A stretch of 26,337 nt of DNA, taken from positions 1 through 26,337 of the IMG/VR virus record IMGVR_UViG_3300042445_000437; one strand, given 5' to 3'. Origin of the DNA: a virus. This document shows positions 10,224-26,337 of this stretch, piece after piece (positions within the stretch are counted from its first letter, which is position 1; every line of letters begins with the position of its first letter). The position numbers and the translations under genes are program-made. The notes beneath the pieces are model-generated. The model searched no databases. It saw nothing but the letters and a program-made list of their open reading frames with translations, and was not told where the DNA came from.

Positions 10224-10237
10224 CAAAGGGAGAAATT

Positions 10238-12133: not shown

Positions 12134-12135
12134 TT

Positions 12136-12603: not shown

Positions 12604-12863
12604 AGACGCTGTTGATAATCGCAGTGCTAATTTTATCCGGGTGCTCTACTGCTCCTGTAGTAATGAAATTTCCAGAAGTGCCCGAAGCGTTAATGCAGCA
12701 ATGCGAACCGTTAGACAAAGTTCCAGCTGACACTAAACAGCTTAGTACCACAGCAGAAGTAGTAATTAAAAATTACGGCAAATATCACGTATGCAGAATC
12801 AAGGTAGAAGAATGGCAAGAATGGTACAAGTCAAATAAGAAAATCTACGAAACAGTTAAATAA
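12600..12863 (+). CDS. Outer-membrane spanin-like lipoprotein (Rz1 type)
   Basis: An 87-residue protein overlapping the i-spanin candidate by 4 bases. The N-terminus MKTLLIIAVLILSGC is a textbook type II signal with lipobox LSGC and lipidated Cys at residue 15. The mature part has a proline-containing stretch (TAPVVMKFPEVPEA) and a C-terminal CRIKVEEWQEWYKSNK helix. Position, size and lipobox match an o-spanin that would span the periplasm with the preceding coiled-coil protein and fuse the membranes in the last lysis step. Confidence 0.75.
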   Translation: MKTLLIIAVLILSGCSTAPVVMKFPEVPEALMQQCEPLDKVPADTKQLSTTAEVVIKNYGKYHVCRIKVEEWQEWYKSNKKIYETVK

Positions 12864-12886
12864 GAGTATGTTTTTAGGAGCGACCT

Positions 12887-13387
12887 ATGGCAACAAATGA
12901 AGAATATGAAAAAATGAGCGCGGCAGAAAAGAAAAAAGAAGATTGGATGAACAGTAAATGGCGTCCAATGATGGGTTGGATGTATATGCTAGTCTGTACC
13001 ATGGACATGGTGATATTTCCAATCTTATGGAGTCTATTACAAACAACTACCGGTACAGCTATCACACAATGGAATCCACTAACCTTACAAGGTGCTGGAC
13101 TATTCCACATCGCAATGGGTGCAGTATTAGGTATTGCGGCATTCGGTCGTACACAGGAAAAACTAGGAGGAGCAAACAATGGCGGAGCACAAGTACCATC
13201 AAGCAACTTTACAGCACCTAGCGCACCTGCGTCAAGTTTCTCAGCACCAAGCTTCTCAGCACCAAGTACCCCAAGTAGCTTTAGCGGAGGCAGCTTTGGA
13301 AGCGCACCTAAGACAACGTCAGCAGCACCGGCAATGAGCAGCACAGGTAAGCCAATGCCAATGCAGCCCGATCAACCTGAACTATAA
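12887..13387 (+). CDS. Holin of the 3TM family with Ser/Ala/Pro-rich tail
   Basis: A 166-residue protein with AGGAG upstream. After a charged N-terminus it has WRPMMGWMYMLVCTMD, a first hydrophobic segment (about 28-51), then NPLTLQGAGLFHIAMGAVLG and a second one (66-86), ending GRTQEK. This is the pattern of the 3TM holin family found in phages and gene-transfer agents. Residues about 95-150 are a low-complexity tail with repeated SFSAP units (tandem 15-base DNA repeat at 13238-13266), then GGSFGSAP. Holins form inner-membrane lesions that release the endolysin. The long tail is unusual and may set timing or protein contacts. Confidence 0.75.
   Translation: MATNEEYEKMSAAEKKKEDWMNSKWRPMMGWMYMLVCTMDMVIFPILWSLLQTTTGTAITQWNPLTLQGAGLFHIAMGAVLGIAAFGRTQEKLGGANNGGAQVPSSNFTAPSAPASSFSAPSFSAPSTPSSFSGGSFGSAPKTTSAAPAMSSTGKPMPMQPDQPEL
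13238..13266 (+). repeat. Tandem 15-base repeat in holin tail
   Basis: TTCTCAGCACCAAG occurs at 13238-13251 and again at 13253-13266, in frame, encoding successive SFSAP units. It explains the low-complexity holin tail and could vary in copy number by slippage. Confidence 0.8.
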
Positions 13388-13399
13388 AGGAAAAATAAA

Positions 13400-13684
13400 A
13401 TGAAATTATTAGCAACAGCAATTTTTGCAGGTATGTTGGCGTTCGGTACAGCCGCATGTGCCAAAGAAGAACCAAAAAAAGCAACTACTCAAGCTGCACC
13501 AGCCTCAGCAGCAGATGCTAAAAAAGATGAAGCGCCAAAGACTAAAAAAGTCTGCGTTGATGTACAAGGCAAAGATGGCAAGCCTGTAATGGATCCTAAA
13601 ACTAAAAAACCTAAACAGAACTGTAAAGAAGTAAAAGTGCATAAGAAGCACGAAGGCACCGCAGTTCCAGATAAGAAAAAATAA
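13400..13684 (+). CDS. Small exported lysine-rich protein or lipoprotein
   Basis: A 94-residue protein with AAGGA upstream. MKLLATAIFAGMLAFGTAACA is a signal peptide. C20 preceded by TAA could be lipidated (a weak lipobox), or signal peptidase I could cleave after ACA. The mature part is very rich in Lys, Ala and Thr, with KVCVDVQGKDGKPVMDPK and two cysteines (C52, C71) that could form a disulfide. It is the last gene before the terminator at 13711 and follows the holin, so it is probably transcribed with the lysis genes. I do not recognise a family; cell-envelope interaction during lysis is only a guess. Confidence 0.6.
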   Translation: MKLLATAIFAGMLAFGTAACAKEEPKKATTQAAPASAADAKKDEAPKTKKVCVDVQGKDGKPVMDPKTKKPKQNCKEVKVHKKHEGTAVPDKKK

Positions 13685-13710
13685 AGCTCAGTAAATCTGT
13701 AGTAAATATA

Positions 13711-13738
13711 AAGGACTGCTTGACACAGTCCTTTTTTT
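13711..13738 (+). terminator. Intrinsic terminator after the lysis cassette, overlapping the dnaJ promoter
   Basis: The perfect 8-bp stem AAGGACTG (13711-13718) / CAGTCCTT (13726-13733), with the 7-base loop CTTGACA, is followed by seven T. It lies 27 bases after the stop of the exported protein. The loop contains the complete -35 hexamer of the downstream promoter. Confidence 0.9.
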
Positions 13739-13748
13739 ATCATATAAT
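13720..13748 (+). promoter_or_regulatory. Consensus sigma70 promoter of the dnaJ operon
   Basis: TTGACA (13720-13725), a 17-base spacer and TATAAT (13743-13748) make a perfect match to the sigma70 consensus at the optimal spacing. The terminator T-run forms part of the spacer. Only six bases separate the -10 box from the dnaJ ATG at 13755, so the expected start site (about seven bases downstream of the -10) falls on or within two bases of that A. The transcript should be leaderless or nearly so. This is probably an early promoter used by host RNA polymerase. Confidence 0.88.
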
Positions 13749-13754
13749 ATAACT

Positions 13755-14588
13755 ATGGATTATTACTCTACACTAGGTTTAAAACGAGGTGCATCAGACG
13801 CCGATATTAAAAAAGCATATCGCAGCATGGCTATGAAGCACCATCCCGACCGCGGCGGTGATGAAAAGAAATTCAAAGAAGTATCACAGGCCTATGAATA
13901 TCTAAGCGATCCTCAGAAAAAACAAATCATAGACCTTGGCGGGGATCCCAATTCGCAACAGAGACAGGGTGGTGGTTTTAATCAAGGCCCGTTTGAATTC
14001 CATTTCAATACAGGAAACTTTGGAGACATATTTGAAAATTTTGGGTTTGGGCAGCGGCCTATGCGCAAGAATAAAAGTCTCAATATCAAAGTGCAAATTA
14101 CATTAGAAGATGTATTGAAAGGCAAAGATATAAATGCAGAAATAGGCATACCTGGCTCCCGTAATAAAATCATCAATATAAAAATCCCAGCAGGAATAGA
14201 ACACGGACAACAGATAAGATACGAAGGCATGGGAGATATGTCTATTCCGGATCTTAGAGCAGGCGATCTAATAGTTAATGTATTTGTTGAAAAACATCCA
14301 ACCTTTTTCAGAGAAGGTAGCTCATTGATCTGCGAGCATGAACTTTCAATATGGGATGCTGTATTAGGAAAAGATCTAGAAATTAAAACACTGGACAGCA
14401 AAACATTAACTATATCAGTGCCAGCAGGCACCCAACCAGAAACGATTCTTAGTTGCCGTAATGAAGGTCTTCCCGATATGCGGACTAAGAGTCGAGGTAA
14501 TTTATTAATTAAATTTAAAATAGCTGTTCCTAAAAATCTAAGCGCGGAACAGATACAAAAAATAAGAGAAATAAAAAATGGATTTTAA
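13755..14588 (+). CDS. dnaJ: DnaJ/CbpA-type J-domain co-chaperone without zinc finger
   Basis: A 277-residue Hsp40. The J domain (1-60) has the canonical start DYYSTLGL and HPD at 30-32, needed to stimulate the DnaK ATPase. A short Gly/Phe-rich linker (about 66-100, FNQGPFEFHFNTGNFGDIF) leads to two C-terminal beta-sandwich substrate-binding domains (IKIPAGIEHGQQIRYEGMG; then VPAGTQPETILSCRNEGLP). There are no CxxCxGxG repeats, so it is the CbpA-like type. There is no Shine-Dalgarno, and the -10 box is six bases upstream, indicating leaderless translation. It overlaps the peptide deformylase start by 11 bases. It would redirect host DnaK to phage needs. Confidence 0.9.
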   Translation: MDYYSTLGLKRGASDADIKKAYRSMAMKHHPDRGGDEKKFKEVSQAYEYLSDPQKKQIIDLGGDPNSQQRQGGGFNQGPFEFHFNTGNFGDIFENFGFGQRPMRKNKSLNIKVQITLEDVLKGKDINAEIGIPGSRNKIINIKIPAGIEHGQQIRYEGMGDMSIPDLRAGDLIVNVFVEKHPTFFREGSSLICEHELSIWDAVLGKDLEIKTLDSKTLTISVPAGTQPETILSCRNEGLPDMRTKSRGNLLIKFKIAVPKNLSAEQIQKIREIKNGF

Positions 14589-15075
14589 ATTAGGAGCTCA
14601 CGGAAGTCTTATACAGCCCAGCAGTGCATGGGACTTTGCCACTGACGGTGATGCCAAACAATTAGAAAATGATATGATAGAATTTATGGTAGCAGCCGGC
14701 GGTATTGGATTAGCTGCTAATCAGATAGGATTAACCAAGCGTGTGTTTGTTATGGGCAGAAATGATATCAAAGATTTTCCTAAACCGTTCGCTGTGTTCA
14801 ATCCTGTAATCAAAGAAGCCAGTAGCGAATTGATCATTGATCAAGAAGGGTGTCTTAGCTATCCTGGATTATTTTTAACAGTTAAAAGGCCTAAATGGAT
14901 CGTTGCTGAGTATCAGGATAGCGATGGTAATCTCAATGAGATTAAGATCGACGGGTATCTCAGTAAATGTTTTCAACACGAATATGATCACCTAGATGGT
15001 ATTTGTTTTGTTGACAGGGTGTCTAGTATGAAGCTACAATTAGCAATGAAGAAACTAAGGAAAAAAAATAAATGA
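14578..15075 (+). CDS. def: Peptide deformylase
   Basis: A 165-residue metallo-hydrolase with all three family motifs: GIGLAANQ (42-49), EGCLS (90-94, metal ligand C92) and HEYDH (134-138; metal ligands H134 and H138, catalytic E135). It removes the formyl group from nascent protein N-termini. The 12-residue N-terminal sequence is close to host-type length, and the C-terminus is short and basic. Peptide deformylases are known in several marine T4-like phages, where they may maintain deformylation of abundant phage-directed products. The gene overlaps dnaJ by 11 bases and clpA by 4, so the three are translated as a unit. Confidence 0.93.
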   Translation: MDFKLGAHGSLIQPSSAWDFATDGDAKQLENDMIEFMVAAGGIGLAANQIGLTKRVFVMGRNDIKDFPKPFAVFNPVIKEASSELIIDQEGCLSYPGLFLTVKRPKWIVAEYQDSDGNLNEIKIDGYLSKCFQHEYDHLDGICFVDRVSSMKLQLAMKKLRKKNK

Positions 15076-17411
15076 TAGAACCTAGTCAGAATCTACAATT
15101 GATTTTTGAGAAATCTGTAGAAATAGCATCTAAATTAAACCATGAATACATAACTATAGAACACATAGTATTTGGTATCATGTGTGATGCAGAGTCATAT
15201 ACTCAAATAGAAGGGTTCGGAGCCGATGCTAATTTTATCAAAACCAACTTAGATCATTATCTAAAAAATAATCTTAATGATATTAAAAGTGCTGATCCTA
15301 AGACCAAACCTAAAAAAACAAACAGTGTAGAGCGTGTATTGAATAGATGCTTTACACAGGTGTTGTTCAGCGGCCGGCAACGTATGGAAGTCGCTGATGT
15401 CATTATAAGTGTGCTGGCTGAAAAGAACAGCTTCGGTTTCTACTTCCTAACCAAAGGTGGAGTCACTAAAGAAAAATTCATCAAGTATTTTCAAGAAAAC
15501 ATTACCATCGAAGATGATGTAGAGGAAGAACGTAGACCAGTGACAGTTTCTCAAATGGACAAAATATTAAATCAGTTCTGTACAAATCTTAGCTTAAAGG
15601 CCAAGCAACGACAGATAGATCCTGTAATTGGTAGAGAGGACGAATTAGAAAAGATACAGTTGGTATTAGCACGTAGAAATAAGTGCAACGTACTAATGGT
15701 CGGAGAGCCGGGCGTGGGTAAGACTGCTATTGCAGAAGGTCTAGCACGTAAGATTTTTGAAAAGAAAGTTCCTAAGTTTATACAGGATCATCAGGTGTAC
15801 ACTTTAGATATCAGTGCCTTGCTTGCTGGTTCAAAGTATCGTGGAGATTTTGAAGAACGCATCAAAGCAGTATTAACTGCATTAGAAAAGAAAGGCAAGA
15901 TTATCCTGTTCATCGACGAAGCACACATGATGCAAGGTGCAGGTGCTGCTAATCAAAGCAGCAATGATATGGCCAATATGTTAAAGCCAGTGTTGACTAA
16001 GGGTGTTATTAAGTTAATCGCATCGACAACTTGGGAAGAGTATCGTAAACACTTTGAAAAGGATCGTGCGTTGATGCGTAGATTCCAACGAATCACAATC
16101 GACGAACCTACTCCGGAGATGTCTGTTAAGATTCTCAAAGGCGTTCGTAAGTATTACGAAAAACATCATAATGTTAAAATTTCCGACGCAGCCATCGAAC
16201 AAGCAGTTAAACTGTCGGTGAAGTACATGAGTGATAAAAAACTTCCGGACAAGGCTATTGATATTATTGATTGTGCTGCTGCGAGATATAAAATCAAGGA
16301 CGATCCAACGACCGAAGGTATAGAACAGATCGTCGACATCGAGCAGATAACCTATGAGTTAAGCAAGATGATTAATATGCCATTAGAAACTGTTGCTCAG
16401 AAAGAAAGTAAAAATCTTTCAGATCTCGAAGGGGGTATGAAAGCAGCAGTGTACGGTCAGGACGGTGCTGTTGATGTATTGCTTGACAAAATATTTGTGT
16501 CTCAGGCAGGCATGAAATCTCCCAACAAACCAATTGGCAGTTTCTTATTCTTAGGACCTACTGGTTGTGGAAAAACTGAAACTGCTAGACAACTATCAGA
16601 TAAGATGGGTATGCCATTAGTTAGATTTGATATGAGCGAATATCAGGAAAAGCACAGTGTTGCTCGATTAATCGGTGCTCCTCCGGGCTATGTTGGCTAC
16701 GAAGATAACGCAGGTCAGCTGATTACCAAGCTACAAGAAACTCCTAATTGTGTATTGTTGTTAGATGAGATTGAAAAAGCTCATCAAGACGTATCTAATA
16801 TCTTATTGCAATTTATGGATAACGGATTTGTTACTGGTTCAAATGGAAAACAGGCCGATGGCAGGAACTGTATTCTTGTTATGACCAGCAATCTGGGAGC
16901 CAGAGACAACGAAAACAACACAATTGGTTTTGGTGATCTAGACAAAGACGGAGAAGATGACAAAGCCATTAAAAAGTTCTTTGCTCCTGAGTTCCGCAAT
17001 CGACTAGACGCAGTAATTAAGTTCAGCAAACTAAGCCAAGAAACAGTTATACAAATTGTTAAGAAATTTATCAGTGAGTTAAACACGCAACTCAAGGACA
17101 AAGGCATTGACATTGTCTTAGACAAACAAGCAGTAGTGTGGTTAGCAGAAAGAGGATACGACAAGAAAATGGGTGCTAGGCCGTTGGCTAGGATCATCGA
17201 CAATAAAATCAAGTCTCCCCTCAGTCGTCGAGTATTGTTTGGCGATCTAGTCGACGGCGGACGTGTAACTATAACTATCGAAAACGATGAACTAGCATTT
17301 AGCGTGGAAGATATTCCAAAGCCATTAACTAAAGATGAGAAAAAAGCTCTCAAAGCTCAAAAAATGTTAGAACTATCTAAAAATGAAATCACAGAAAACC
17401 AAGAAGACTAG
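15072..17411 (+). CDS. clpA: ClpA-type AAA+ unfoldase
   Basis: A 779-residue protein of full ClpA length. The N-terminal Clp-N-like helical domain (about 1-145) is divergent. The first AAA+ ring has Walker A GEPGVGKT (211-218, K217) and Walker B LFIDEAH (279-285). The second has Walker A GPTGCGKT (495-502, K501), Walker B VLLLDEIEKAH and sensor R in APEFRNRLDAVIKF. There is no ClpB-type middle coiled coil. An I-G-F tripeptide at 618-620 sits where ClpA carries its IGL ClpP-docking loop, so docking to host ClpP is likely. No clpP or clpS is nearby. It would unfold selected proteins for degradation or disassemble complexes. Confidence 0.92.
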   Translation: MIEPSQNLQLIFEKSVEIASKLNHEYITIEHIVFGIMCDAESYTQIEGFGADANFIKTNLDHYLKNNLNDIKSADPKTKPKKTNSVERVLNRCFTQVLFSGRQRMEVADVIISVLAEKNSFGFYFLTKGGVTKEKFIKYFQENITIEDDVEEERRPVTVSQMDKILNQFCTNLSLKAKQRQIDPVIGREDELEKIQLVLARRNKCNVLMVGEPGVGKTAIAEGLARKIFEKKVPKFIQDHQVYTLDISALLAGSKYRGDFEERIKAVLTALEKKGKIILFIDEAHMMQGAGAANQSSNDMANMLKPVLTKGVIKLIASTTWEEYRKHFEKDRALMRRFQRITIDEPTPEMSVKILKGVRKYYEKHHNVKISDAAIEQAVKLSVKYMSDKKLPDKAIDIIDCAAARYKIKDDPTTEGIEQIVDIEQITYELSKMINMPLETVAQKESKNLSDLEGGMKAAVYGQDGAVDVLLDKIFVSQAGMKSPNKPIGSFLFLGPTGCGKTETARQLSDKMGMPLVRFDMSEYQEKHSVARLIGAPPGYVGYEDNAGQLITKLQETPNCVLLLDEIEKAHQDVSNILLQFMDNGFVTGSNGKQADGRNCILVMTSNLGARDNENNTIGFGDLDKDGEDDKAIKKFFAPEFRNRLDAVIKFSKLSQETVIQIVKKFISELNTQLKDKGIDIVLDKQAVVWLAERGYDKKMGARPLARIIDNKIKSPLSRRVLFGDLVDGGRVTITIENDELAFSVEDIPKPLTKDEKKALKAQKMLELSKNEITENQED

Positions 17412-18063
17412 TCGAAAGTTTTACAATAAGTGGTTATATAAGGTCTCTATAAAGGTCAATGGAGCACCTGTATTTCGCTTAGGAGATATGGATACGGTCA
17501 TTGATTTTTGTAATAATGCCGATAATGATGCTCGACCCTATAGTCTAAGTCATAAAGTTCGAGATCATAAAGAACAGATCGTTGACATGGCGTCTTTTCT
17601 TAAACCCTATGATCCTAGCATATGGTCTAAGAGAGTAGAATCGAATATCGTGGACATATACACCAACGATCGACAGTTCTACGAAGACATAACCGATAGA
17701 TTTTTAGAAACAGTTGTTCATAGATTTGAACCAGATCCACAAACAGAGGATTTGTTAAAAGATGGAACTCACTATATCGTTTCTAAAAAGCTGCCGCATG
17801 ATAGATATCAATTTAGAGTATATCTGCTACCGCATAATATGTCGGGTGATCGTGATGGAAAACAACAATATCTCAATTGGATCAAGAAGCAAAATGAAAA
17901 AATAACCCTAACTCCGGCTGTAGAGAGCTGGTTTATTAAAACTGATTGGAATTGGGACCGTAGATATGTGCTAGTAGAGGACGAAGCTACACTAATCATG
18001 CTGAAACTTAGGAATAGTGAGGTTGTGGGCAGGATTTACAATTACGTAGTATCCGATAAATAA
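17383..18063 (+). CDS. Hypothetical protein downstream of clpA
   Basis: A 226-residue protein overlapping the end of clpA by 29 bases. The N-terminus is strongly basic (KKTSRKFYNKWLYKV), followed by FRLGDMDTVIDFCNN, a DIYTNDRQFYEDITDRFLE segment and SWFIKTDWNWDRRYVLVEDEATLIML. Aromatic and charged residues are frequent and no membrane segment is seen. No Shine-Dalgarno is evident, so translation may depend on coupling to clpA. I do not recognise a family. Its place at the end of the dnaJ-def-clpA unit makes an adaptor or substrate-linked role worth considering, but this is speculation. Confidence 0.6.
   Translation: MKSQKTKKTSRKFYNKWLYKVSIKVNGAPVFRLGDMDTVIDFCNNADNDARPYSLSHKVRDHKEQIVDMASFLKPYDPSIWSKRVESNIVDIYTNDRQFYEDITDRFLETVVHRFEPDPQTEDLLKDGTHYIVSKKLPHDRYQFRVYLLPHNMSGDRDGKQQYLNWIKKQNEKITLTPAVESWFIKTDWNWDRRYVLVEDEATLIMLKLRNSEVVGRIYNYVVSDK
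18055..18062 (+). promoter_or_regulatory. GATAAATA octamer over the upstream stop codon (ambiguous)
   Basis: GATAAATA covers the D-K-stop end of the preceding gene, only four bases before the ATG at 18067. As a late promoter it would start transcription on or just after that ATG, which is awkward. It may be a coding coincidence, but it lies exactly where early-type genes give way to virion-type genes. Confidence 0.3.
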
Positions 18064-18066
18064 GAG

Positions 18067-18420
18067 ATGTCCATAGAAAGCATAACACTATTAGAAAACA
18101 CCTTTACAGAATCTGCGAATTCTGATTTTTCCTACGGAGAAAAAAAGAAAGGTGCTGGGTATCATAAAAACTCCGATGGCATTCATACTGTTGTCTATCA
18201 ATTCAACAATTTTATCGGAACTGTTAAGATACAAGGCACCTTAGCTTTGTATCCCGGAGAAGCCGATTGGGTCGACGTTGACGGTACTACTATTGGTGTT
18301 TTAGATAGTTCTGCGTTAAACAACGACGAAACTAGAACATTCACAGGAAAATTTGTGTGGATTCGTGCTGCATACACTCTACAAAACGGTACTATAACCG
18401 AAATCCGTTATAATCACTAA
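18067..18420 (+). CDS. Probable virion structural protein
   Basis: A 117-residue beta-rich protein. The segments GTVKIQGTLALYPGEADWVDV and TRTFTGKFVWIRAAYTLQNG, ending EIRYNH, resemble C-terminal modules of particle proteins in marine T4-like phages. No enzyme motif or signal peptide is seen. The upstream AAGAG provides a modest ribosome binding site, and the start (MSIESITLL) is the only reasonable one. It is the first gene of the structural cluster that runs to 25011. Confidence 0.6.
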   Translation: MSIESITLLENTFTESANSDFSYGEKKKGAGYHKNSDGIHTVVYQFNNFIGTVKIQGTLALYPGEADWVDVDGTTIGVLDSSALNNDETRTFTGKFVWIRAAYTLQNGTITEIRYNH

Positions 18421-18432
18421 GCCTGTCTGAAC

Positions 18433-18440
18433 GATAAATA
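18433..18440 (+). promoter_or_regulatory. Late-promoter-like box GATAAATA
   Basis: GATAAATA lies in the 44-base gap between two virion-type genes, 24 bases before the ATG at 18465, and shares the longer context ACGATAAATA with the copy at 10216. The expected start site is about 18446-18448, giving a leader of roughly 18 bases with CGGA as the only ribosome-binding candidate. Confidence 0.6.
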
Positions 18441-18465
18441 TAGTATGACCTTACGGAACATACTA
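18441..18465. repeat. Inverted repeat between late-type promoter and start codon
   Basis: TAGTATG (18441-18447) and CATACTA (18459-18465) are perfect inverted copies separated by 11 bases. The right arm ends on the A of the ATG at 18465. If transcription starts near 18447, only the right arm is in the mRNA, which would favour a DNA-level operator over an RNA hairpin. Confidence 0.6.
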
Positions 18466-19535
18466 TGAGAGACCTAATATCTAAACTAGACGCTATCGTT
18501 AGCGAAACTGCATTAAATCCCGGCGATCCTGCGGGCGATTACGAAGCAAAAAAGAAAGCCCTGGCTGACCTAGAGGCAGATCCTAATTCAGACGGCGAAA
18601 TCAAAGATGCTATTATTCAACGAAAGGCTGACCTAGACAAAGAAGCTAAATCCAAAGGCGTATTTGAAATAGGTGATTCATTCGGTATCAGCTTTTCTCA
18701 AGATCACGAGATTACTACAGAAATCACTGATGTGCTAGAAGACGGTATTGTTATTGATCTAGACGATGCTGCTTTAGAAATGTTAAGTGCCCAGGGAATA
18801 ATGTTTCTCGAAGGAGAAGTTGTTCGTGAAGATAAACAGAAAGGCGTCGATGGCAAGGCCTGCTGGAAAGGCTACAAGCGCATGGGCACCAAACAAAAAG
18901 GTGGCAAGACTGTAGACAACTGCGTTAAAATGGAAGATCATTCAGAAGATCCGGAAGATCCAGAGAACTACGGCGAGTACGACAACGAAGGCGATATGGC
19001 CAAAGACGATCTTCGTACTATCAACAGTGCTGCTCAAGAATTATACGACATATTAGATACTGACGACAATCTACCAGAATGGGTGCAGGCAAAAATCACC
19101 AAGGCTGTAGACTATATCGACACAGCTCGTGATTATATGAAATCCAATAACTACGCCGAAGAGGGTAGTATACCGTTCGCAGGAAAAAAAGCTGGCCATA
19201 AAGAAGGTCCTGCTGGACAATGGCGCAATGACGGCACCAGCAAAAATCGACCTGCGCGGCAAGGAGACTTAGTTGGCGGCGAGAGCATTGCTAACGAAGC
19301 AGAATATCAAGGCCGCAACGTCCCATTAGGTAAGAAGATGGCCGGCGATGTTAAGAAATCTAAAGTATATGTACGCAAGCCCAATGGTAATATTGTCAAG
19401 GTAAACTTTGGCGATAAGAAAATGCGTATCAAAAAATCCAATCCAGCACGTAGAAAATCATTCCGTGCTAGACATAATTGCAAAAATCCAGGACCGCGTT
19501 GGAAAGCGAGATACTGGTCTTGTAGGAGCTGGTAA
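18465..19535 (+). CDS. Virion-associated protein with Cys-containing and basic C-terminal modules
   Basis: A 356-residue protein. The N-terminus MRDLISKLDAIVSE resembles that of the 495-residue protein at 23524 (LISKLDS), and may be a packaging or prohead-core signal. About residues 124-152 contain GKACWKGYKRMGTKQKGG followed by a second Cys (NCVKM), a short module I recognise in aquatic T4-like virion proteins. An acidic region follows. The last 60 residues are strongly basic and conserved in type: VYVRKPNGNIVKVNFGD, then RRKSFRARHNCKNPGPRWKA. This C-terminal domain recurs in phage particle proteins. A DNA-contacting or capsid-internal role is inference. Confidence 0.7.
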   Translation: MRDLISKLDAIVSETALNPGDPAGDYEAKKKALADLEADPNSDGEIKDAIIQRKADLDKEAKSKGVFEIGDSFGISFSQDHEITTEITDVLEDGIVIDLDDAALEMLSAQGIMFLEGEVVREDKQKGVDGKACWKGYKRMGTKQKGGKTVDNCVKMEDHSEDPEDPENYGEYDNEGDMAKDDLRTINSAAQELYDILDTDDNLPEWVQAKITKAVDYIDTARDYMKSNNYAEEGSIPFAGKKAGHKEGPAGQWRNDGTSKNRPARQGDLVGGESIANEAEYQGRNVPLGKKMAGDVKKSKVYVRKPNGNIVKVNFGDKKMRIKKSNPARRKSFRARHNCKNPGPRWKARYWSCRSW

Positions 19536-19870
19536 TGTTATTAAGAGAAATGTTTAGTCCTATTGGGTCTCCTAAAGACGAGCCCGACATTGATTGGTTA
19601 GGCGATCTTAAGTTTTTTATCGACAATGATACAAAGACGTTAGATCGACATTTCTTTCCAGCCATCGATAGACATAAAGATCATGTAGGAAATCCCAATG
19701 CTTATAAAATTTACATACGACCTCTAGAAATGTGTAAAGAAGAATATTGTAAAAAATATGAAATATCAGATCCGGGTGAGAAGTTTCCTAAGGAAAAACT
19801 AATCGAGTTAGCTAAACAACTAGCTAACGAGCAAGAAAAACATATTAAACACGGCGACTATGAAGATTAA
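19535..19870 (+). CDS. Hypothetical protein of the virion-type cluster
   Basis: A 111-residue soluble protein sharing one base with the upstream stop (TAATG) and overlapping the next gene by 11 bases. The N-terminus MLLREMFSPIG is a loose relative of the M-K-x-x-E starts of its neighbours. Visible segments are DIDWLGDLKFFIDNDTKTLD, a conserved-looking AYKIYIRPLEMCKEEYCKKY with two cysteines spaced four apart, and a charged C-terminal helix. I do not recognise a family. Position suggests a particle-associated protein. Confidence 0.6.
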   Translation: MLLREMFSPIGSPKDEPDIDWLGDLKFFIDNDTKTLDRHFFPAIDRHKDHVGNPNAYKIYIRPLEMCKEEYCKKYEISDPGEKFPKEKLIELAKQLANEQEKHIKHGDYED

Positions 19871-21014
19871 AGAATTAGTTGAAGCCGAGACAGGTGGCAA
19901 ACATATTACTTTCTGTTTCGGAAGGATGAACCCTCCCACGATTGGACACGAACAAGTTTTTAAAACTATGGCCGATGTAGGCGGGGACTATAAAATTTTT
20001 GTAAGTCAAACCCAAGATAAAAAAGAAAATCCCCTAGACTACGCTACAAAGACCAAGTTCATCAAGTTAATACATCCCAAGTATGCTGATCATTTAGTCG
20101 TTGATCCGAGGCTTAACACAATTGGAAAAGTCTGCTCTTATTTGTATGACCTCGGATATAGAGATGCTACCTTTGTAGCAGGTAGTGATCGACTAGCTAG
20201 TTTTCAAAAATTAATCTCCGATTACAACGGAGTTGAGGGTAAAGGACACGGGTATTATAAGTTTGAAGTATTAGATTTTAAATCCAGCGGGGAAAGAGAA
20301 GATGGCGCCGAAGGTATTAAAGGCGTTAGTGCAAGCAAAGCCAGAGAAAAAGCAGTAGATGGAGATTTGCAAGGATTCGCTGAAAAGACTGGCGCCGGGC
20401 AATACGCTGAAGAACTCTACAACGCTGTTCGCGTCGGCATGGGAATCAAAGAAGATTTTAGTGAGGGGTGGAAGAGTAAAATGGCCGGGGCAGCATTAGC
20501 TGCTGCTAATCTTTTAGGAAGCCCTGCTCAAGCAGCAGAAGAACCTATTAAGCCTATTACTATCGCTTATGTTAAGATAGATGGTGAAATAAGAAAATAT
20601 AACTTAGGTGATCGCTTTGAAAATGCTAGAGAAGCAGAAAAGTTTATCAGCGGAGTGTTGGATAAACAGGGACTACAAGGTTATACATTAGATATCAAAC
20701 ACGGCTATCCTAAAAAGAAAGAAGAGGTCAAAGAAGCTCCGATCGAAATGGACCCTAGCGATCCGATGGATCCTATGATTCACAGTCATGATAAGGCCAA
20801 TCCTGCTAAATTAAAATACCGTATGCTACGTGCCGCTGGACAATTAAAAGATCTAGCCAGTCGAGCTGAGAATGCCAGCCCCGGCGAATGGCAGCTAATG
20901 GCACGACAGTTCGACGAACTGAAAATGAACATGGAACAGATACGTCATGCTCTCGAGGAACTAGGCAAAATCAAAAGCAAAGGCGGCATTAGATCAAGAG
21001 GAATTTCCTTATGA
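19860..21014 (+). CDS. Nucleotidyltransferase (NMNAT-like) fused to a virion-type C-terminal region
   Basis: A 384-residue protein. Residues 1-9 (MKIKELVEA) look like a T4 capsid-targeting sequence with a possible LVE/A cleavage site. The enzymatic domain (about 13-195) has FGRMNPPTIGH (20-30), the (H/T)xGH motif of nicotinamide-nucleotide and related adenylyltransferases, and GVSASKAREKA (155-165), matching the ISSTxxR motif. A hydrophobic, signal-peptide-like segment follows (about 208-227, MAGAALAAANLLGSPAQAA), then a small KIDGEIRKYNLGDRF domain. A helical C-terminus comes last (KLKYRMLRAAGQLKDLASRA, then MARQFDELKMNMEQIRHAL). It may make NAD or a related nucleotide adduct and may travel inside the capsid; the latter is inference. 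Confidence 0.75.
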   Translation: MKIKELVEAETGGKHITFCFGRMNPPTIGHEQVFKTMADVGGDYKIFVSQTQDKKENPLDYATKTKFIKLIHPKYADHLVVDPRLNTIGKVCSYLYDLGYRDATFVAGSDRLASFQKLISDYNGVEGKGHGYYKFEVLDFKSSGEREDGAEGIKGVSASKAREKAVDGDLQGFAEKTGAGQYAEELYNAVRVGMGIKEDFSEGWKSKMAGAALAAANLLGSPAQAAEEPIKPITIAYVKIDGEIRKYNLGDRFENAREAEKFISGVLDKQGLQGYTLDIKHGYPKKKEEVKEAPIEMDPSDPMDPMIHSHDKANPAKLKYRMLRAAGQLKDLASRAENASPGEWQLMARQFDELKMNMEQIRHALEELGKIKSKGGIRSRGISL

Positions 21015-21706
21015 AAGCCAAAGAATTTATACCAGCAAGTAAACCTAGAAACTTTGTAGCTAAGAATCAAAAAACTGCAGGTGCTGGCGCACACAAAGAT
21101 AAAAAGAAAGCTGAAAAACAAGGCGACTTTAAACACAAGCAAAAACAGTTTGAAGATGCTGAGCCCATGGATCGTGAATTTGCTCTGGTCAAAAAGCTAG
21201 GTAGACTAGGTGAACGCATTGTGCAAAATCCTAAACTTTGGGACCGATACGACGAAGCCATTAACAACGAGAATATTGATTGGATCATTGATTTGATCCA
21301 GGACGGAACTGGTGCCACAGTCAGCGAGGTAACGAAGCTGGCTGACTTGTTTGGTGAGATAGGTGGCGGCCTGGGACGACTTACAGATTTTGCTTGGGCT
21401 GTAAAAGAAGGCAAATGGGAAAAAGATTTCATGGACCCGTATAGGAAGCATAGAAGTAAAGATATGACCGAAAGAGTAAGAGATCCAGAGGATTGGGATG
21501 AAGGCAATACAGAACCCGGAAATAACTTTGCTGTTTACATCAACGGTAAGAAGTGGAAAGTATTTCCTGGGCCAGCAGGTGCGTATGCAGATAGTCCGGA
21601 AGAAAAAAGAGAATTTCAAAGATTAAAAGACATGGCCGCTAGAAAGTCAGCAGCCACTGGTAAGAAGTGGGAAATTTATATTACCGGCGAGCCAGCAACA
21701 AAATAA
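21011..21706 (+). CDS. Virion-type protein with conserved basic N-terminal motif
   Basis: A 231-residue protein overlapping the nucleotidyltransferase by 4 bases. MKAKEFIPASKPRNFVAKNQ is followed by a Lys-rich segment (KDKKKAEKQGDFKHKQ). I recognise the KPRNFVAKN-x-KT-x-GAGAHKDKKK block as recurrent in marine T4-like phage proteins. The first seven residues match the M-[KR]-[AI]-x-E-[FLI]-[VIL] start shared with three other genes here, but no E-x-cleavage site follows at once. The centre is helical and contains LGEIGGGLGRL-like glycines. The C-terminal AVYINGKKWKVFPGPAGAYA is probably beta. Function unknown. Confidence 0.65.
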   Translation: MKAKEFIPASKPRNFVAKNQKTAGAGAHKDKKKAEKQGDFKHKQKQFEDAEPMDREFALVKKLGRLGERIVQNPKLWDRYDEAINNENIDWIIDLIQDGTGATVSEVTKLADLFGEIGGGLGRLTDFAWAVKEGKWEKDFMDPYRKHRSKDMTERVRDPEDWDEGNTEPGNNFAVYINGKKWKVFPGPAGAYADSPEEKREFQRLKDMAARKSAATGKKWEIYITGEPATK

Positions 21707-21924
21707 TGGATGAATTAGATCAGATCAAGAGACTTGCAGGCATAAATGAATTTAAAGGCCTTAAAACCTACGAAGGCATAAATGTTTCAATTTCTGGAAC
21801 TGAAAAAAGAAAAATAGAACGCGAGCAAGATATACGACCAGGAACTCCTGAATGGTTTCAACTTTGGTTTAGTTTGCCGTATCTAACTAACGAAAAATTT
21901 GGAGATAAGCAATGGTTGAGGTAA
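21706..21924 (+). CDS. Small virion-type protein with RLAGI N-terminus
   Basis: The frame is open from 21667, but the ATG at 21706 is preferred: it shares a base with the upstream stop (TAATG) like its neighbours, and it begins [16 protein letters not shown], a start typical of small marine T4-like phage proteins with an IKRLAGI motif. This gives 72 residues. The conserved-looking [19 protein letters not shown] segment near residues 44-62 is also familiar from such phages. Function unknown. It overlaps the Fe-S carrier gene by 13 bases. Confidence 0.65.
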
Positions 21925-22235
21925 CTCCAGCAGCTCGTATAAAAATACAAGATCTGTTGTCAGAAGAAAATAATCTTAATCTTAAATTAAGAACGTTCGT
22001 GCAAGGCGGCGGATGCAGTGGATTTAGTTATGGATTCACGTTTGACGATGTTCAAAATGATGATGACTTTGAAATACCGGTAGGTAGTTGGAAGATGGTC
22101 GTTGATGCTATGAGTATGCAATATCTCAACGGTGCTGAGATTGATTATAAAGAAGATATTACAGGTAGTCAATTTGTTATAAAAAATCCCAATGCTCAAA
22201 CAACCTGTGGCTGCGGCAGCAGCTTTTCAGTATGA
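21912..22235 (+). CDS. A-type iron-sulfur cluster carrier (IscA/ErpA/HesB family)
   Basis: A 107-residue protein with the family's three cluster-binding cysteines: C35 in [11 protein letters not shown], and C99 and C101 in [11 protein letters not shown]. Length and strand order match ErpA and IscA, with [14 protein letters not shown] at the N-terminus. These proteins accept [4Fe-4S] or [2Fe-2S] clusters from a scaffold and deliver them to apo-enzymes. Relatives are known in marine T4-like phages. The gene has no other Fe-S partner in the window, so it must work with host machinery. Its client is unknown. It is embedded among virion-type genes and overlaps both neighbours. Confidence 0.9.
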
Positions 22236-22309
22236 ACCCAAACAATTATCCAGTATTCCCAGAGGACGACGGCTATGACACTCCAAAAAATCCCTACAGC
22301 CCTGTTTAA
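22232..22309 (+). CDS. Putative 25-residue peptide
   Basis: An ATG overlaps the TGA of the Fe-S carrier (TATGA), the coupling style of this region, and opens 25 codons ending in TAA at 22307-22309. The peptide ([20 protein letters not shown] then PYSPV) is rich in Pro, Asn and Asp. No ribosome binding site beyond the coupling is visible. It could instead be a non-functional frame. Confidence is low. Confidence 0.35.
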
Positions 22310-22433
22310 AAATTTTGTAACAGGCATGTATTTTTACGCGATCGGAATGAGCTTTGCGTATGCAGGCGACATTGGCCAAACCTACGATTGGTGCGATCCA
22401 ACATATTGCTGTAATCCAACAAAGATATCTTAA
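22275..22433 (+). CDS. Small exported cysteine-containing protein, 52 residues
   Basis: An ATG at 22275 preceded by GAGGACGACGGCT opens 52 codons ending in TAA at 22431-22433, which shares its last base with the next ATG (TAATG). The protein has a basic and then hydrophobic N-terminus ([20 protein letters not shown]) with a plausible AYA signal-peptidase site, then a short tail with three cysteines (DWCDPTYCCNP). The stop-start overlap and signal-like organisation support it as a real gene filling an otherwise empty 197-base gap. Family unknown. Confidence 0.55.
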   Translation: MTLQKIPTALFKNFVTGMYFYAIGMSFAYAGDIGQTYDWCDPTYCCNPTKIS

Positions 22434-23275
22434 TGCGAGCTCACGAGTTTATCACTGAAAAGAAGAAGCGCAAGAAGAAAACACGTTGGGCTGCTTACGG
22501 CCCAGGTCCATACGGCGGCTATGGATATGCCACAGGCTATAGCGGAGACGGTGGGGGCGGTGATGGCGGCGTTGGAGAGGCAGACGCTAGCGATATAGAG
22601 TTAAAACAAAGATACGGCGAGTTTGATCCCGAGGACAAACCCATGTTGCCAACTACAAAAGTTGGAGGTGCTCCTGCTCCTACGCTATGGACAGCATATG
22701 ATGCTATCAAAAATATCTTAGGTAAACATCGAATAACCGACGACGAAGATAGTGTTGAACCCGGTATGTATTACGTGTACCAAAGCAACGAATCGCCGAT
22801 GTTTAGAGACACCGAAGAATCAGGAACTGGCGGCAGTATTAATATTCCCAACTTAGACAGCAAAGCTGCTAAAGATGTTGCTGTGGCTGTCCACGAAGCA
22901 TATCATGCATATGTGCATGATAAGACCAAAGGCAGCGGGCGTGTACATGCTAATGAAAAGATTATCAACAACTTAGCAGAAAAATGGTTGAGAAATCATT
23001 TGTCTGGATCCGCACTTCACGTAGCCTTAGAAACCATCATCGGTAGTCGTATTAGCTACGGCAGAGATCATATGCCCAAAAGCAGTGTAGCGAAAGAAAA
23101 CTTTGCAGATGGTAAGAAACCTGGACGCAAAGGACTAGCTAAACGTTCAGGAGTTAATACCAAGGCCAGTGTTAGTGATCTACGTAAAACTGCTAAAAAT
23201 TCATCGGGCGAGAAACAGCGGATGGCACACTGGCTAGCTAACATGAAAGCAGGCCGTGCTAAGAAGAATAAATAA
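22433..23275 (+). CDS. Putative zinc metalloprotease with capsid-targeting-like N-terminus
   Basis: A 280-residue protein starting MRAHEFITE, very close to the T4 capsid-targeting sequence (MKTYQEFI-x-E), followed by a basic KKKRKKKTR run and a Gly/Tyr-rich linker. VAVAVHEAYHAYVH contains HExxH (H154, E155, H158). A candidate third ligand is E175 in ANEKIINNLAE, 17 residues on, as in gluzincin-type proteases. The C-terminus (ENFADGKKPGRKGLAKRSG, then MAHWLANMK) is a basic module shared by many aquatic T4-like virion proteins. A capsid-packaged protease, used in assembly or injected, is a reasonable but unproven reading. Proteolytic activity itself is also untested. Confidence 0.7.
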   Translation: MRAHEFITEKKKRKKKTRWAAYGPGPYGGYGYATGYSGDGGGGDGGVGEADASDIELKQRYGEFDPEDKPMLPTTKVGGAPAPTLWTAYDAIKNILGKHRITDDEDSVEPGMYYVYQSNESPMFRDTEESGTGGSINIPNLDSKAAKDVAVAVHEAYHAYVHDKTKGSGRVHANEKIINNLAEKWLRNHLSGSALHVALETIIGSRISYGRDHMPKSSVAKENFADGKKPGRKGLAKRSGVNTKASVSDLRKTAKNSSGEKQRMAHWLANMKAGRAKKNK

Positions 23276-23279
23276 TAGT

Positions 23280-23465
23280 ATGAAAATAAGTGAAATTTTA
23301 GAATCAGCAACAGCAGGCGCTACAAGTGCTGGCAATGTATCTGTGGGCGCAGTATATCAAAACACGCCCGGAAAAACTCTAAAAAACAAGAACGGTACAG
23401 CAAAAAATGCGCTCGATCTAAAGGGTGTTAACTTGTTAACTGGCGGAAGTATCAAACGAAGATAA
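23280..23465 (+). CDS. Small virion-type protein with capsid-targeting-like N-terminus
   Basis: The frame is open from 23256, but the ATG at 23280 is preferred because it comes just after the upstream stop and begins MKISEILESA, matching the starts of neighbouring genes. This gives 61 residues, with a possible ILE/S processing site. The Gly/Ala/Ser-rich body ends in LKGVNLLTGGSIKRR, a C-terminus I recognise from small marine T4-like phage proteins. Its stop codon lies inside the late-type box at 23461. Function unknown. Confidence 0.65.
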   Translation: MKISEILESATAGATSAGNVSVGAVYQNTPGKTLKNKNGTAKNALDLKGVNLLTGGSIKRR

Positions 23466-23468
23466 ATA
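23461..23468 (+). promoter_or_regulatory. Late-promoter-like box GATAAATA
   Basis: GATAAATA overlaps the stop codon of the previous gene and lies 55 bases before the ATG at 23524. The expected start near 23474-23476 gives a leader of about 48 bases that carries the hairpin TCAACA-CGAC-TGTTGA (23483-23498) and the AAGGAAG ribosome binding site (23512-23518). Confidence 0.6.
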
Positions 23469-23482
23469 ATATACGGGTTTAG

Positions 23483-23498
23483 TCAACACGACTGTTGA
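23483..23498 (+). repeat. Short hairpin in the leader of the 495-residue protein
   Basis: TCAACA and TGTTGA are perfect inverted copies around a four-base CGAC loop, in the predicted leader between the late-type box and the ribosome binding site. No T-run follows, so it may stabilise the 5' end of a highly expressed message. It is short enough to be chance. Confidence 0.45.
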
Positions 23499-23523
23499 TA
23501 GAAACACACTAAGGAAGATAATA

Positions 23524-25011
23524 ATGGATTTTAAAACACTCATCAGCAAACTAGACAGCATGGAAGCACCCCCAAAGACTCCCGCTGCACCAGTATTAGA
23601 TAAAGCTGTACAGCTTAACGAAGATGCACAATTACGTGTTCTAAGTGGTCGTACTAGCTACGTTGCAGAAGCTAAGAAAAAGGCTGAAGAAGACGTTAAA
23701 GAAGAAATGAAAGTAGGTGATAAGAAAGCATCATCTACAGGTGGAACTATCGAAAAGACCAAGACTGGTATCAAGCATACAGCTGGTAAGAACTATGGCG
23801 GCGACAAAGCACCGAAGGACGACGAAGATGACGCACCTAAGGCTAAGAAAGCTAAAAAAGAATCTATAGATACAGAAGCTTTTGGCGGCAAGTTTGCTAA
23901 GATGGTTGAAGCTAAGAAAGCAGAAGCTGACAAAAAGAAAAAGAAAATGGAAGAAGGCTCTAAGCCAGACTTCTTAGACATGGACAAAGACGGCGACAAG
24001 AAAGAGCCAATGAAGAAAGCGGTTGCTGATAAGAAGGGCGGTCCAAAGAAAGGTGTAAATCCTTTTGCTAAGAAAGACGATGATGTTAAAGAATCCGACG
24101 AGATGAAAGTAGGAGATAAGAAAAAGTCTTCTACAGGCGGAACTATTGAAAAAACAGCAACAGGTATTAAACATACCGGCGGCAAAAACTACAGTGGCAA
24201 GACTGCCGAGAAAGAAGAAAAATCTAAGAAAGATGAGTCATTTGCTAGCCGTAAAAAAGTTATGGCAGAATCATTTGAACCAAAATTAACATTCAAAGAA
24301 ATGGTACGTCTAGTACAAGAAAGCGGAGGTCAACAACAAATTGATCCTACTGATAAAGCATTGTTCAACTGGGCCGAGCGTGTGGCTATCAGCAAGTTAG
24401 GCGAAGGTACTAAAGCCTCTCTATATGCAGGATTAATCTACGAACGCAATGGTGGCGTATTTGAAATGTACGATGTACTGAGCGAAGGTAAAAAAAAAGT
24501 CAATGAAGGTAGAGCCCAATTAACTGAGGGCATGATTGAGAAAGTTAAAAATGTCTTGATGTCTAAAATGGCATCGAAACTTTCGGACGAAGAAAAGTCT
24601 AAGATGAAGGCAACCGCAGAAAAGGTATTAGGCAAATCAGAAGTTTCATCAGACGATTTTACATTAGCAAATATTAAAGCAGTGGCTAAGGCATTGGGTG
24701 CTAAACCAGAAGCTGCAAGTGAATCCATTGAAGAAGGTCCAATGGATATGATTAAAGATGCAGGAAAGAAAGTTGGTGATTTCTTTGGTCAGAAGAAAGT
24801 AGATCCAAAGAGCGGTATGGGAACTATTGGTAGTGTAGACGCATGGGATAAGAGTGCAACATTAGGTGAAAAACTTGTTAGCCTAACTGGTGCATTAGGT
24901 GGAACTGCTGCAATGATCGCTGGATTCTTTGGTGGCCCGGCTTGGTTAATTATTCCGGGGTTGTTAGCATTACTGTTCTTGTCGCAAGTTGGAACAACCA
25001 AAGGTTACTAA
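23524..25011 (+). CDS. Lysine/glutamate-rich virion or prohead-core-type protein with internal repeats
   Basis: A 495-residue protein with AAGGAAG upstream. The N-terminus MDFKTLISKLDSMEAPP resembles that of the protein at 18465. Two 33-residue repeats, 61-93 and 193-225, are identical at 29 positions (EMKVGDKK-x-SSTGGTIEKT core). Between them is an EF-hand-like acidic loop, DMDKDGDKKEP (152-162). The central part is helical (KLTFKEMVRLVQESGG; MIEKVKNVLMSKMASKLSDE). Many sites fit the T4 gp21 protease preference (L/I-x-E before G/A/S), for example LSE/G, LTE/G and IEE/G. The C-terminus (about 449-490) has two hydrophobic, Gly-rich segments ending in LIIPGLLALLFLSQVGTTKGY. A prohead-core or packaged internal protein is the best reading. 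Its own terminator follows. Confidence 0.65.
   Translation: MDFKTLISKLDSMEAPPKTPAAPVLDKAVQLNEDAQLRVLSGRTSYVAEAKKKAEEDVKEEMKVGDKKASSTGGTIEKTKTGIKHTAGKNYGGDKAPKDDEDDAPKAKKAKKESIDTEAFGGKFAKMVEAKKAEADKKKKKMEEGSKPDFLDMDKDGDKKEPMKKAVADKKGGPKKGVNPFAKKDDDVKESDEMKVGDKKKSSTGGTIEKTATGIKHTGGKNYSGKTAEKEEKSKKDESFASRKKVMAESFEPKLTFKEMVRLVQESGGQQQIDPTDKALFNWAERVAISKLGEGTKASLYAGLIYERNGGVFEMYDVLSEGKKKVNEGRAQLTEGMIEKVKNVLMSKMASKLSDEEKSKMKATAEKVLGKSEVSSDDFTLANIKAVAKALGAKPEAASESIEEGPMDMIKDAGKKVGDFFGQKKVDPKSGMGTIGSVDAWDKSATLGEKLVSLTGALGGTAAMIAGFFGGPAWLIIPGLLALLFLSQVGTTKGY
23704..23802 (+). repeat. Intragenic repeat copy 1 (33 codons)
   Basis: This encodes EMKVGDKKASSTGGTIEKTK and the TGIKHTAGKNYGG that follows. 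It is 29 of 33 residues identical to the copy at 24100-24198, with many silent differences, so the duplication is old and the protein sequence has been kept. Confidence 0.9.
24100..24198 (+). repeat. Intragenic repeat copy 2 (33 codons)
   Basis: This encodes EMKVGDKKKSSTGGTIEKTA and the TGIKHTGGKNYSG that follows. It is the second copy of the repeat at 23704-23802, separated from it by 297 bases that contain the acidic loop. Confidence 0.9.
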
Positions 25012-25031
25012 TCAGTTTACGTTTGGTAAAC

Positions 25032-25063
25032 AAAAGCCAGTCATAGGTTGACTGGCTTTTTTT
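25032..25063 (+). terminator. Intrinsic terminator overlapping the dsbA-like promoter
   Basis: AAAAGCCAGTCA (25032-25043) pairs perfectly with TGACTGGCTTTT (25049-25060) around the five-base loop TAGGT, followed by more T to 25063. It lies 20 bases after the stop of the 495-residue protein. The right arm contains most of the -35 box of the next promoter. Confidence 0.92.
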
Positions 25064-25076
25064 ATGACTATATAAT
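25048..25076 (+). promoter_or_regulatory. Near-consensus sigma70 promoter of the dsbA-like operon
   Basis: TTGACT (25048-25053), a 17-base spacer and TATAAT (25071-25076) form a promoter one base short of consensus. The first T of the -35 is in the terminator loop, the rest in its right arm, and the T-run is in the spacer. The expected start near 25083 gives a leader of about 14 bases with TAGGAGAT before the ATG at 25097. Confidence 0.85.
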
Positions 25077-25096
25077 AGTTCTATAGGAGATAATTT

Positions 25097-25360
25097 ATGT
25101 CTACAAGAATGTATGGTCCGGAAGAAAAAGCAAAACTAGAGCGATTAATCAACGAAGGCTCAAATGTATTACGTGAGTTAGAAGATCTCCAAGAGGGTCT
25201 CAAAGAAACTGTTAAAGCTGTCGCAGAAGAACTACAAATTAAACCCAGCATCATCAACAAAGCAATTAAGATCGCACACAAAGATAACTGGAAAGACCAC
25301 GAACAAGAATGGAATGACATTGAAATGATTCTCGGTGTCACTAAAAGACTTCCTGAATGA
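25097..25360 (+). CDS. dsbA: DsbA-like double-stranded DNA-binding protein
   Basis: An 87-residue, charged all-helical protein. The segments EEKAKLERLINEGSNVLREL, LKETVKAVAEELQIKPSIIN and KAIKIAHKDNWKDHEQEWND fit the family of T4 DsbA (89 residues), including the conserved L-K-P/V-x-x-x-N-x-x-x-x-I-A-x-K-D region. T4 DsbA binds double-stranded DNA and is linked to late promoter regions. It is not the disulfide oxidase of the same name. It has its own near-consensus sigma70 promoter and good ribosome binding site and is followed by overlapping genes. It is likely expressed early or continuously. Confidence 0.75.
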   Translation: MSTRMYGPEEKAKLERLINEGSNVLRELEDLQEGLKETVKAVAEELQIKPSIINKAIKIAHKDNWKDHEQEWNDIEMILGVTKRLPE

Positions 25361-25641
25361 TTGAACTGTTAAAACCCACTTTTGACTGGATACGAGATGA
25401 CTGGCGATCAAATAAGTTTAGATTCTGCGTTGAGGTCCTGGCTTGGGCAATCTCGATTGGTTGCGCAATTACTATGGCAGCAACTGTTCCAAATCCGCCT
25501 CTATTGGTACTCTATCCTATTTGGATTACTGGTTGTGCCATGTATGCTTGGGCTAGTTATACTCGGAAATCGTTTGGCATGTTGGCTAACTATATCTTGT
25601 TAACAACTATAGATACTGTTGGCCTTATCAGGATGCTATAA
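25357..25641 (+). CDS. Conserved small membrane protein
   Basis: A 94-residue protein overlapping the dsbA-like gene by 4 bases. After a soluble N-terminus with FDWIRDDWRSNKFRF it has hydrophobic segments at about 24-44 and 48-66, and a weaker one near 75-92. The VPNPPLLVLYPIWITGCAMY block is a membrane hairpin with helix-breaking prolines. I recognise it as a conserved membrane protein of marine T4-like phages located near gene 43, with no established function. Its stop codon is part of a TATAAATA box. Confidence 0.7.
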   Translation: MIELLKPTFDWIRDDWRSNKFRFCVEVLAWAISIGCAITMAATVPNPPLLVLYPIWITGCAMYAWASYTRKSFGMLANYILLTTIDTVGLIRML

Positions 25642-25644
25642 ATA
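25637..25644 (+). promoter_or_regulatory. TATAAATA, exact match to T4 late promoter consensus
   Basis: TATAAATA overlaps the stop codon of the membrane protein (TAA 25639-25641) and lies 74 bases before the gene 43 start. A start site near 25650 would give a leader of about 68 bases that includes the hairpin at 25689-25706. It could also act as an AT-rich -10. Transcription of gene 43 is more certainly supplied by the promoter at 25048. Confidence 0.45.
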
Positions 25645-25688
25645 TATCGTAGAAGGTAGGCGTGGCCATAAACCGCACAATTGGTATT

Positions 25689-25706
25689 TGCAAGCCGTAA
25701 ATTGCA
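25689..25706 (+). promoter_or_regulatory. Hairpin before gene 43 with T4 polymerase-operator geometry
   Basis: TGCAA (25689-25693), the eight-base loop GCCGTAAA and TTGCA (25702-25706) form a 5-bp stem that ends one base before the AGGAGA Shine-Dalgarno (25708-25713). In T4, gp43 represses its own translation by binding a hairpin with a 5-bp stem and 8-base loop in the same place. The loop sequence here differs from that of T4. The remaining part of the 77-base gap (25645-25688) shows nothing else convincing. Confidence 0.55.
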
Positions 25707-25718
25707 TAGGAGAATAAA

Positions 25719-26337
25719 TTGAGTTATGTAGACGCTTTCTATGATAGAGAGCAGGATGTAATCAATGTGGTTGAACGTGATGACAAAGGTCAACGACATT
25801 ACAAAGAATATCCTGCTAAACATCTATTTTATTATCAAGACCCCCGCGGCAAGTTTCAATCGATCAAAGGCGAACCTTTAACACGAGTATCAAGTAGAAA
25901 CGTTAAAGAGCATCGCAAAGAGCTGGCTATACACAGCAATAAAAAATTATATGAATCAGACATCAATCCTATCTATCGATGTCTTGAAGATCAATATCTT
26001 AATGTAGACGCACCCAAACTCAACATAGCATTCTTTGATATTGAAGTAGACTTCGATCCAGAACGTGGCTACGCATCACCAGAAGATGCGTTCATGCCAA
26101 TTACTGCTATTGCTGTGTATCTGCAATGGATGGAGACCATGATATGTCTAGCTATTCCGCCTAAGACCTTGTCTATGGAAGAAGCCAAGCGACACGTTGA
26201 AGACTTCCCTAATACCATGCTGTTTGACAACGAAGCAGACATGTTGGATACATTCTTAAACTTGATCGAAGACGCAGATGTGTTAAGTGGATGGAACTCG
26301 GAAGGTTTCGATATTCCGTATACTGTGAACCGTGTAG
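25719..26337 (+). CDS. 43: DNA polymerase gp43, N-terminal part (continues past window)
   Basis: The open frame uses a TTG start at 25719: AGGAGA lies five bases upstream, an in-frame stop (TAG, 25707-25709) excludes anything earlier, and there is no usable ATG nearby. The visible 206 residues cover the N-terminal domain (VDAFYDREQDVINVVERDDK; EYPAKHLFYYQDPRGK) and the start of the 3'-5' exonuclease. Exo I is FFDIEVDF with D107 and E109. Exo II is the GWNSEGFDIPY segment just before the edge. IHSNKKLYESDINPIYRCL and DPERGYASPEDAFMPITAI are typical of gp43 from aquatic T4-like phages. This is the family B replicative polymerase. The polymerase domain lies outside the window. Confidence 0.93.
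   Translation, partial: MSYVDAFYDREQDVINVVERDDKGQRHYKEYPAKHLFYYQDPRGKFQSIKGEPLTRVSSRNVKEHRKELAIHSNKKLYESDINPIYRCLEDQYLNVDAPKLNIAFFDIEVDFDPERGYASPEDAFMPITAIAVYLQWMETMICLAIPPKTLSMEEAKRHVEDFPNTMLFDNEADMLDTFLNLIEDADVLSGWNSEGFDIPYTVNRV

Follow-up and report, generated by a model that had tools for sequence, protein, structure and literature searches.

A putative terminator–promoter overlap ahead of a dsbA-like gene in a jumbo phage fragment, and its recurrence across viruses

Two sites in the window and their gene setting

We analysed a 26,337-base virus fragment from IMG/VR (the window, taken at its full length), which from its sequence is a piece of a jumbo phage that is a distant relative of T4 and PA5oct. 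Compared over its start, the DNA polymerase shares 50% identity with the enzyme from Sinorhizobium phage Phosso and 44% with the one from PA5oct, and the same two jumbo phages were matched by the dsbA-like protein in a sequence search. Two intergenic sites, one ahead of the dsbA-like gene and one ahead of a dnaJ-like gene, combine a terminator-like hairpin with a promoter-like element, and we refer to them as composites. The features of both sites are as follows.

23524–25011, + strand: upstream gene, 495 aa; the same family lies upstream of dsbA in 35 of 35 clustered sequences, the window included
25032–25060, + strand: predicted terminator hairpin with a 12-bp stem and a 5-base loop (RNAfold; covariation in relatives)
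25048–25053, + strand: candidate −35 box TTGACT, formed by the last loop base and the right arm; TTGAC is invariant in relatives
25057–25063, + strand: T-run of the terminator (7 T), also the first part of the promoter spacer (read directly; five T invariant in 30 relatives)
25071–25076, + strand: candidate −10 box TATAAT, separated from the −35 by a 17-base spacer; invariant in 30 relatives
25083, + strand: predicted transcription start, 7 bases past the −10, placed by the usual sigma-70 spacing
25085–25089, + strand: Shine-Dalgarno-like AGGAG of dsbA, whose ATG is at 25097 (read directly)
25097–25360, + strand: dsbA-like gene, downstream unit (phrog_12534, 8e-21; phrog_639, 6e-12)
13710–13734, + strand: predicted terminator hairpin of the first composite (RNAfold −12.1 kcal/mol, z −4.1; covariation)
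13720–13748, + strand: candidate promoter TTGACA-17-TATAAT with its −35 in the hairpin loop; 12/12 consensus match, retained by 39 of the 45 distinct relatives with a hairpin
13755–14588, + strand: dnaJ-like gene, downstream of the first composite (PF00226, PF01556)

At the dsbA site, positions 25032–25043 (AAAAGCCAGTCA) pair with 25049–25060 (TGACTGGCTTTT), and the resulting hairpin has a predicted energy of −19.8 kcal/mol (z −5.4), a stability equalled by none of 200 shuffled sequences in RNAfold. The genes on both sides are on the + strand, and the terminator and promoter signals together span about 45 bases, so that the site has the anatomy of a terminator–promoter overlap: a hairpin with a T-run between codirectional genes and a promoter for the next unit that shares its bases. 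Against the sigma-70 consensus TTGACA-17-TATAAT the dsbA site matches at 11 of 12 positions and the dnaJ site at 12 of 12, from which we infer use of sigma-70. A preliminary description of the window had reported a 12-bp stem at the dsbA site, TTGACT 17 bases from TATAAT and a T-run within the spacer, all of which are correct, and had claimed the same geometry at 13720, where we likewise found TTGACA-17-TATAAT with an overlapping hairpin; the layout of 13710–13748 is the same as at the dsbA site. The upstream gene at 23524–25011 had no match in Pfam or PHROG profile searches, and the dsbA-like gene scored 24.6 bits against PF11126, slightly below the cut-off of 25.

The genes between 11504 and 17411 encode, in order, a predicted endolysin, a holin and a small signal-peptide-bearing protein, followed by the composite and then by DnaJ, a peptide deformylase and a ClpA-like ATPase. 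This order would fit a boundary from a late unit to another unit. The distance from the end of the −10 to the dnaJ ATG is only 5–9 bases in nearly all composite-bearing relatives (L136–L214), and in the window (13743–13757) it is 6 bases, which would place the start at the A of the ATG itself; a leaderless dnaJ message is therefore predicted. A gap of 10 bases or fewer also occurs in 9 of 46 composites from other viruses.

Conservation in relatives and occurrence across viruses

The overlap with TTGAC(T/C)-17-TATAAT is present upstream of dsbA at 75 of the 79 loci whose upstream sequence was read. Across 30 aligned upstream sequences there is no change in TTGAC, in most of the stem core, in five T of the T-run or in TATAAT, and the loop varies. 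In 11 dsbA-site sequences a stem pair has changed in compensatory fashion from A-U to G-C, the right member of that pair being the sixth base of the −35. The four exceptions can be understood from their gene arrangement: in two (L081 and L083) the upstream gene lies on the opposite strand, and the promoter-like element is kept with the hairpin absent; in the other two (L079 and the similar L080) dsbA runs on directly from the upstream gene, with neither hairpin nor promoter.

A terminator-like hairpin occurs at the dnaJ site in 45 of 51 distinct upstream regions. TTGAC inside the hairpin and a promoter matching at least 10 of 12 positions occur together in 39 of these 45 and are both missing from the remaining 6, with no discordant case; two further sequences (L212 and L215) have the promoter and lack the hairpin. 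Two-sided changes affect 5 of the 9 stem pairs (25 cells, against 8.6 in shuffles), and most of this covariation signal is lost when the partner is slid. The counts at both sites come from related sequences and hence do not represent independent events. Retention of the overlap through compensatory stem changes, together with the joint presence or loss of the two signals at dnaJ, argues that both are under selection, and the existence of terminator-only and promoter-only forms indicates that each stands on its own. The hairpins of the two sites are unrelated in sequence and drift independently in relatives, which bears out the earlier view of a recurring architecture and led us to reject a copied mobile repeat.

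The separate existence of the two signals also favours passive compaction, in which genome-size pressure pushed a needed terminator and a needed promoter together and the overlap itself is idle. Both signals are AT-tailed and fit together under low constraint, TTGAC can act as a loop, and other promoters of the same genomes simply come after a terminator. The same nested offset is nevertheless found at unrelated sites and has long been retained, which speaks against an idle overlap and is not by itself proof of coupling. We regard compaction as a fairly probable account of why the overlap exists. Polymerase hand-over and promoter occlusion are competing accounts, with the lower probabilities given below; none of the three is exclusive of the reading of the site as a terminator–promoter overlap, which states what it is.

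The window holds three exact TTGAC-17-TATAAT matches. Two of them share bases with a terminator, where shuffles of the flanks and spacer predict 0.02. The third, at 22144–22172 on the minus strand, was considered as a further composite and rejected because it has no hairpin and sits inside an iron-sulphur carrier-like gene, in antisense orientation. It is an exact TTGACT-17-TATAAT whose two hexamers recur with a different spacer in similar matches in two other records, G007 (63053–63081) and G009 (34935–34963), and it may reflect either coding constraint or a genuine antisense promoter. The preliminary description had proposed comparing relatives with shuffled sequence. G001, a relative of 353 kb, has 46 exact promoters, 3 of which overlap a terminator (0.16 expected); for G002, a second relative of 280 kb, the count is 2 out of 25 (0.34 expected), and in RB49 it is none out of 10. 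Our scan finds about 70 terminator-like hairpins per genome and only 2–4 overlap sites per large genome, so the overlap is a minority device within any one genome; the idea of a general punctuation device in this genome does not hold at that frequency, though the arrangement recurs across viruses.

The pattern TTGAC-N4-8-TTTTT-N5-10-TATAAT was found in at least 120 stretches of IMG/VR, related contigs among them. Among the matches listed, 45 of the 80 with a spacer of 17 have an overlapping hairpin (shuffling just the 30 bases upstream gives a mean of 2.4 and a maximum of 8), compared with 2 of the 16 with spacers of 14, 15 or 19–22; because related contigs are included, these 45 overlaps do not amount to 45 independent origins. 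The listed composites differ in hairpin sequence and in neighbouring genes, and by eye their downstream proteins include sliding-clamp-like, RNase-H-like, Hsp20-like and high-light-inducible-like proteins. A chance meeting of a terminator with promoter-like letters might be suspected, since T-runs and AT-rich flanks readily produce −10-like strings and a scan of 7000–26337 returned 57 promoter-like matches against 46 expected. The excess of overlaps over shuffles both in the window and in IMG/VR, the stem covariation and the joint loss of both boxes make this explanation extremely improbable.

Strong promoters picked without requiring a T-run overlap far less often: of the viral CTTGACA-17-TATAATA promoters scanned, 121 show no overlap and three more (L222, L231 and L234) do, which gives about 2%. 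Of 115 such promoters in bacterial genomes, a loose rule counts 3 as overlapping, one of them with a convincing T-run. Among named phages, PA5oct carries a composite (AAAAGGGCACTTGACAAGTGCCCTTTTTTTGCCATATAAT, spacer 18) at 186478–186507, between a gene for a protein annotated as structural by mass spectrometry and a small gene; S-PM2 has one composite, at 124309–124337, ahead of a high-light-inducible gene; and a weaker example, with a 16-base spacer, lies at the end of regA in P-SSM2. The pattern scan gave no match in T4, KVP40, Aeh1, 44RR2.8t, Felix O1, SPO1, Phosso, Vibrio phage 2.275.O, RB49, Syn9 or Syn19, and its matches in phage K, SCTP-2, Atu_ph07, HTVC008M and S-SSM7 have no convincing overlapping terminator.

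Known systems and proposed function

The term terminator–promoter overlap is already established for concatenated operons, one of them being tufB-secE in Salmonella (Brandis, Cao and Hughes 2019, as cited in PMC7055797). As presented there, tufB-secE resembles the composites in that the upstream terminator and the next promoter share sequence between codirectional units. The phage composites differ in carrying the −35 inside the hairpin; when the E. coli tufB-secE gap was scanned, its hairpin contained no strong −35, so that the exact geometry found no counterpart there. An overlapping promoter–terminator element described for PhiX174 (PMC9135205) is, as far as that account goes, similarly one phage element that closes one unit and opens the next, but PhiX174 is a small, unrelated phage.

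Closer in phylogenetic terms are the PeSL cassettes of T4-like phages, which, going by the titles, are terminator–promoter composites (Arbiol 2010; Comeau 2014; titles cited in PMC4503421). The window sites share with them a stem-loop terminator and a strong early sigma-70-type promoter (here by sequence only), a position between codirectional genes and a T4-superfamily phage genome, and the genes upstream of the dnaJ site partly differ, as might be expected of a recombination cassette for module shuffling. In RB49, however, the promoter follows the stem-loop without overlap: no promoter was found inside a hairpin there, and the two signals abut, with the −35 at +12 to +32 from the hairpin end, whereas in the window composites it lies at −13 and −15. 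Nor are there many similar recombining copies; the sites are few, their hairpins are unrelated and the gene upstream of dsbA is constant, so that a cassette of this type is very improbable here. In the limited literature that we searched there was no published survey of the nested geometry, which is no proof of novelty. The composites are thus a well-conserved example of a known and little-studied kind of signal, in a recurring nested geometry.

The dsbA site very probably is a terminator–promoter overlap in which the terminator of the upstream unit is nested with the sigma-70-type promoter of the next, and the best reading of the overlap is as compact punctuation between transcription units. 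The hairpin and T-run would end transcripts of the 23524–25011 gene, with release near 25063–25067; the same bases would provide the −35 and spacer of a strong promoter, and a new transcript from about 25083 would cover dsbA and the genes after it. As the −35 pentamer occupies the loop and right arm, and the spacer is taken up by the T-run, neither signal would spoil the other. The suggestion that the device insulates a late from an early unit in minimal space is partly borne out, in that the units are compactly separated and late-type endolysin and holin genes lie upstream at the dnaJ site. A further proposal, of interference over shared bases between hairpin formation in the transcript and promoter opening in the DNA, fails as worded: the stem overlaps only the −35 and early spacer, promoter melting is predicted from about 25072, 12 bases beyond the stem, and the start at about 25083 is downstream, so the new RNA would never include the hairpin. 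Any interference between the two signals would come instead from a polymerase occupying the promoter.

The footprint of an elongation complex extends about 18 bases to each side. With such a footprint, a polymerase stalled at the terminator would sit over the whole stretch from −35 to −10. Heavy upstream transcription should therefore block access to the promoter, or the stalled enzyme could restart there. In the first case the overlap would act as a switch, with terminating polymerases covering the promoter and silencing dsbA until the upstream unit is off; this geometry and the late-type lysis genes upstream at the dnaJ site are consistent with such a switch, which we consider unlikely on balance. 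In the second, the terminating polymerase would stay on the DNA and restart at the overlapping promoter, so that upstream transcription would feed downstream initiation. The release point falls on the promoter by the expected footprint, polymerase is reported to remain on DNA after termination and to reinitiate nearby (PMC6978380, PMC6978322), and fitness is reduced when the tufB-secE overlap is interrupted, as stated in PMC7055797. Reported restarts are, however, also long-distance and often antisense, so an overlap is not required for them (PMC6978380, PMC6978322), and we find hand-over a doubtful explanation; it is similarly doubtful that phages repeatedly evolved the nested plan as a device dedicated to hand-over, with the overlap itself under selection.

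Under the reading as a terminator–promoter overlap, two signals usually drawn apart can share bases stably and repeatedly in different viruses. The composites, some of them in cultured phages (PA5oct, S-PM2), offer natural constructs for studying on-the-spot restart by terminating polymerases, and they carry a warning for annotation, as a promoter whose −35 is hidden in a terminator can be missed.

Further signals in the large relatives

The T4-type late promoter TATAAATA showed no enrichment in the relatives, but it was not enriched in RB49 either, so this result says little about late genes in the relatives. Dense one-strand runs of near-consensus TTGACA-17-TATAAT promoters occupy 310–338 kb of G001 and 69–85 kb of G002 and are likely early regions. 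A conserved hairpin, AAGTGGGCTTGACCCACTT, is followed by a T-run at G001 275184 and G002 121142 and has TTGAC in its loop; the correctly spaced −10 is weak or missing in G002, and a second promoter lies about 40 bases on. Over the whole records TATTAATA is over-represented (38 occurrences against 24 expected in G001, 34 against 18 in G002) and is possibly a phage signal.
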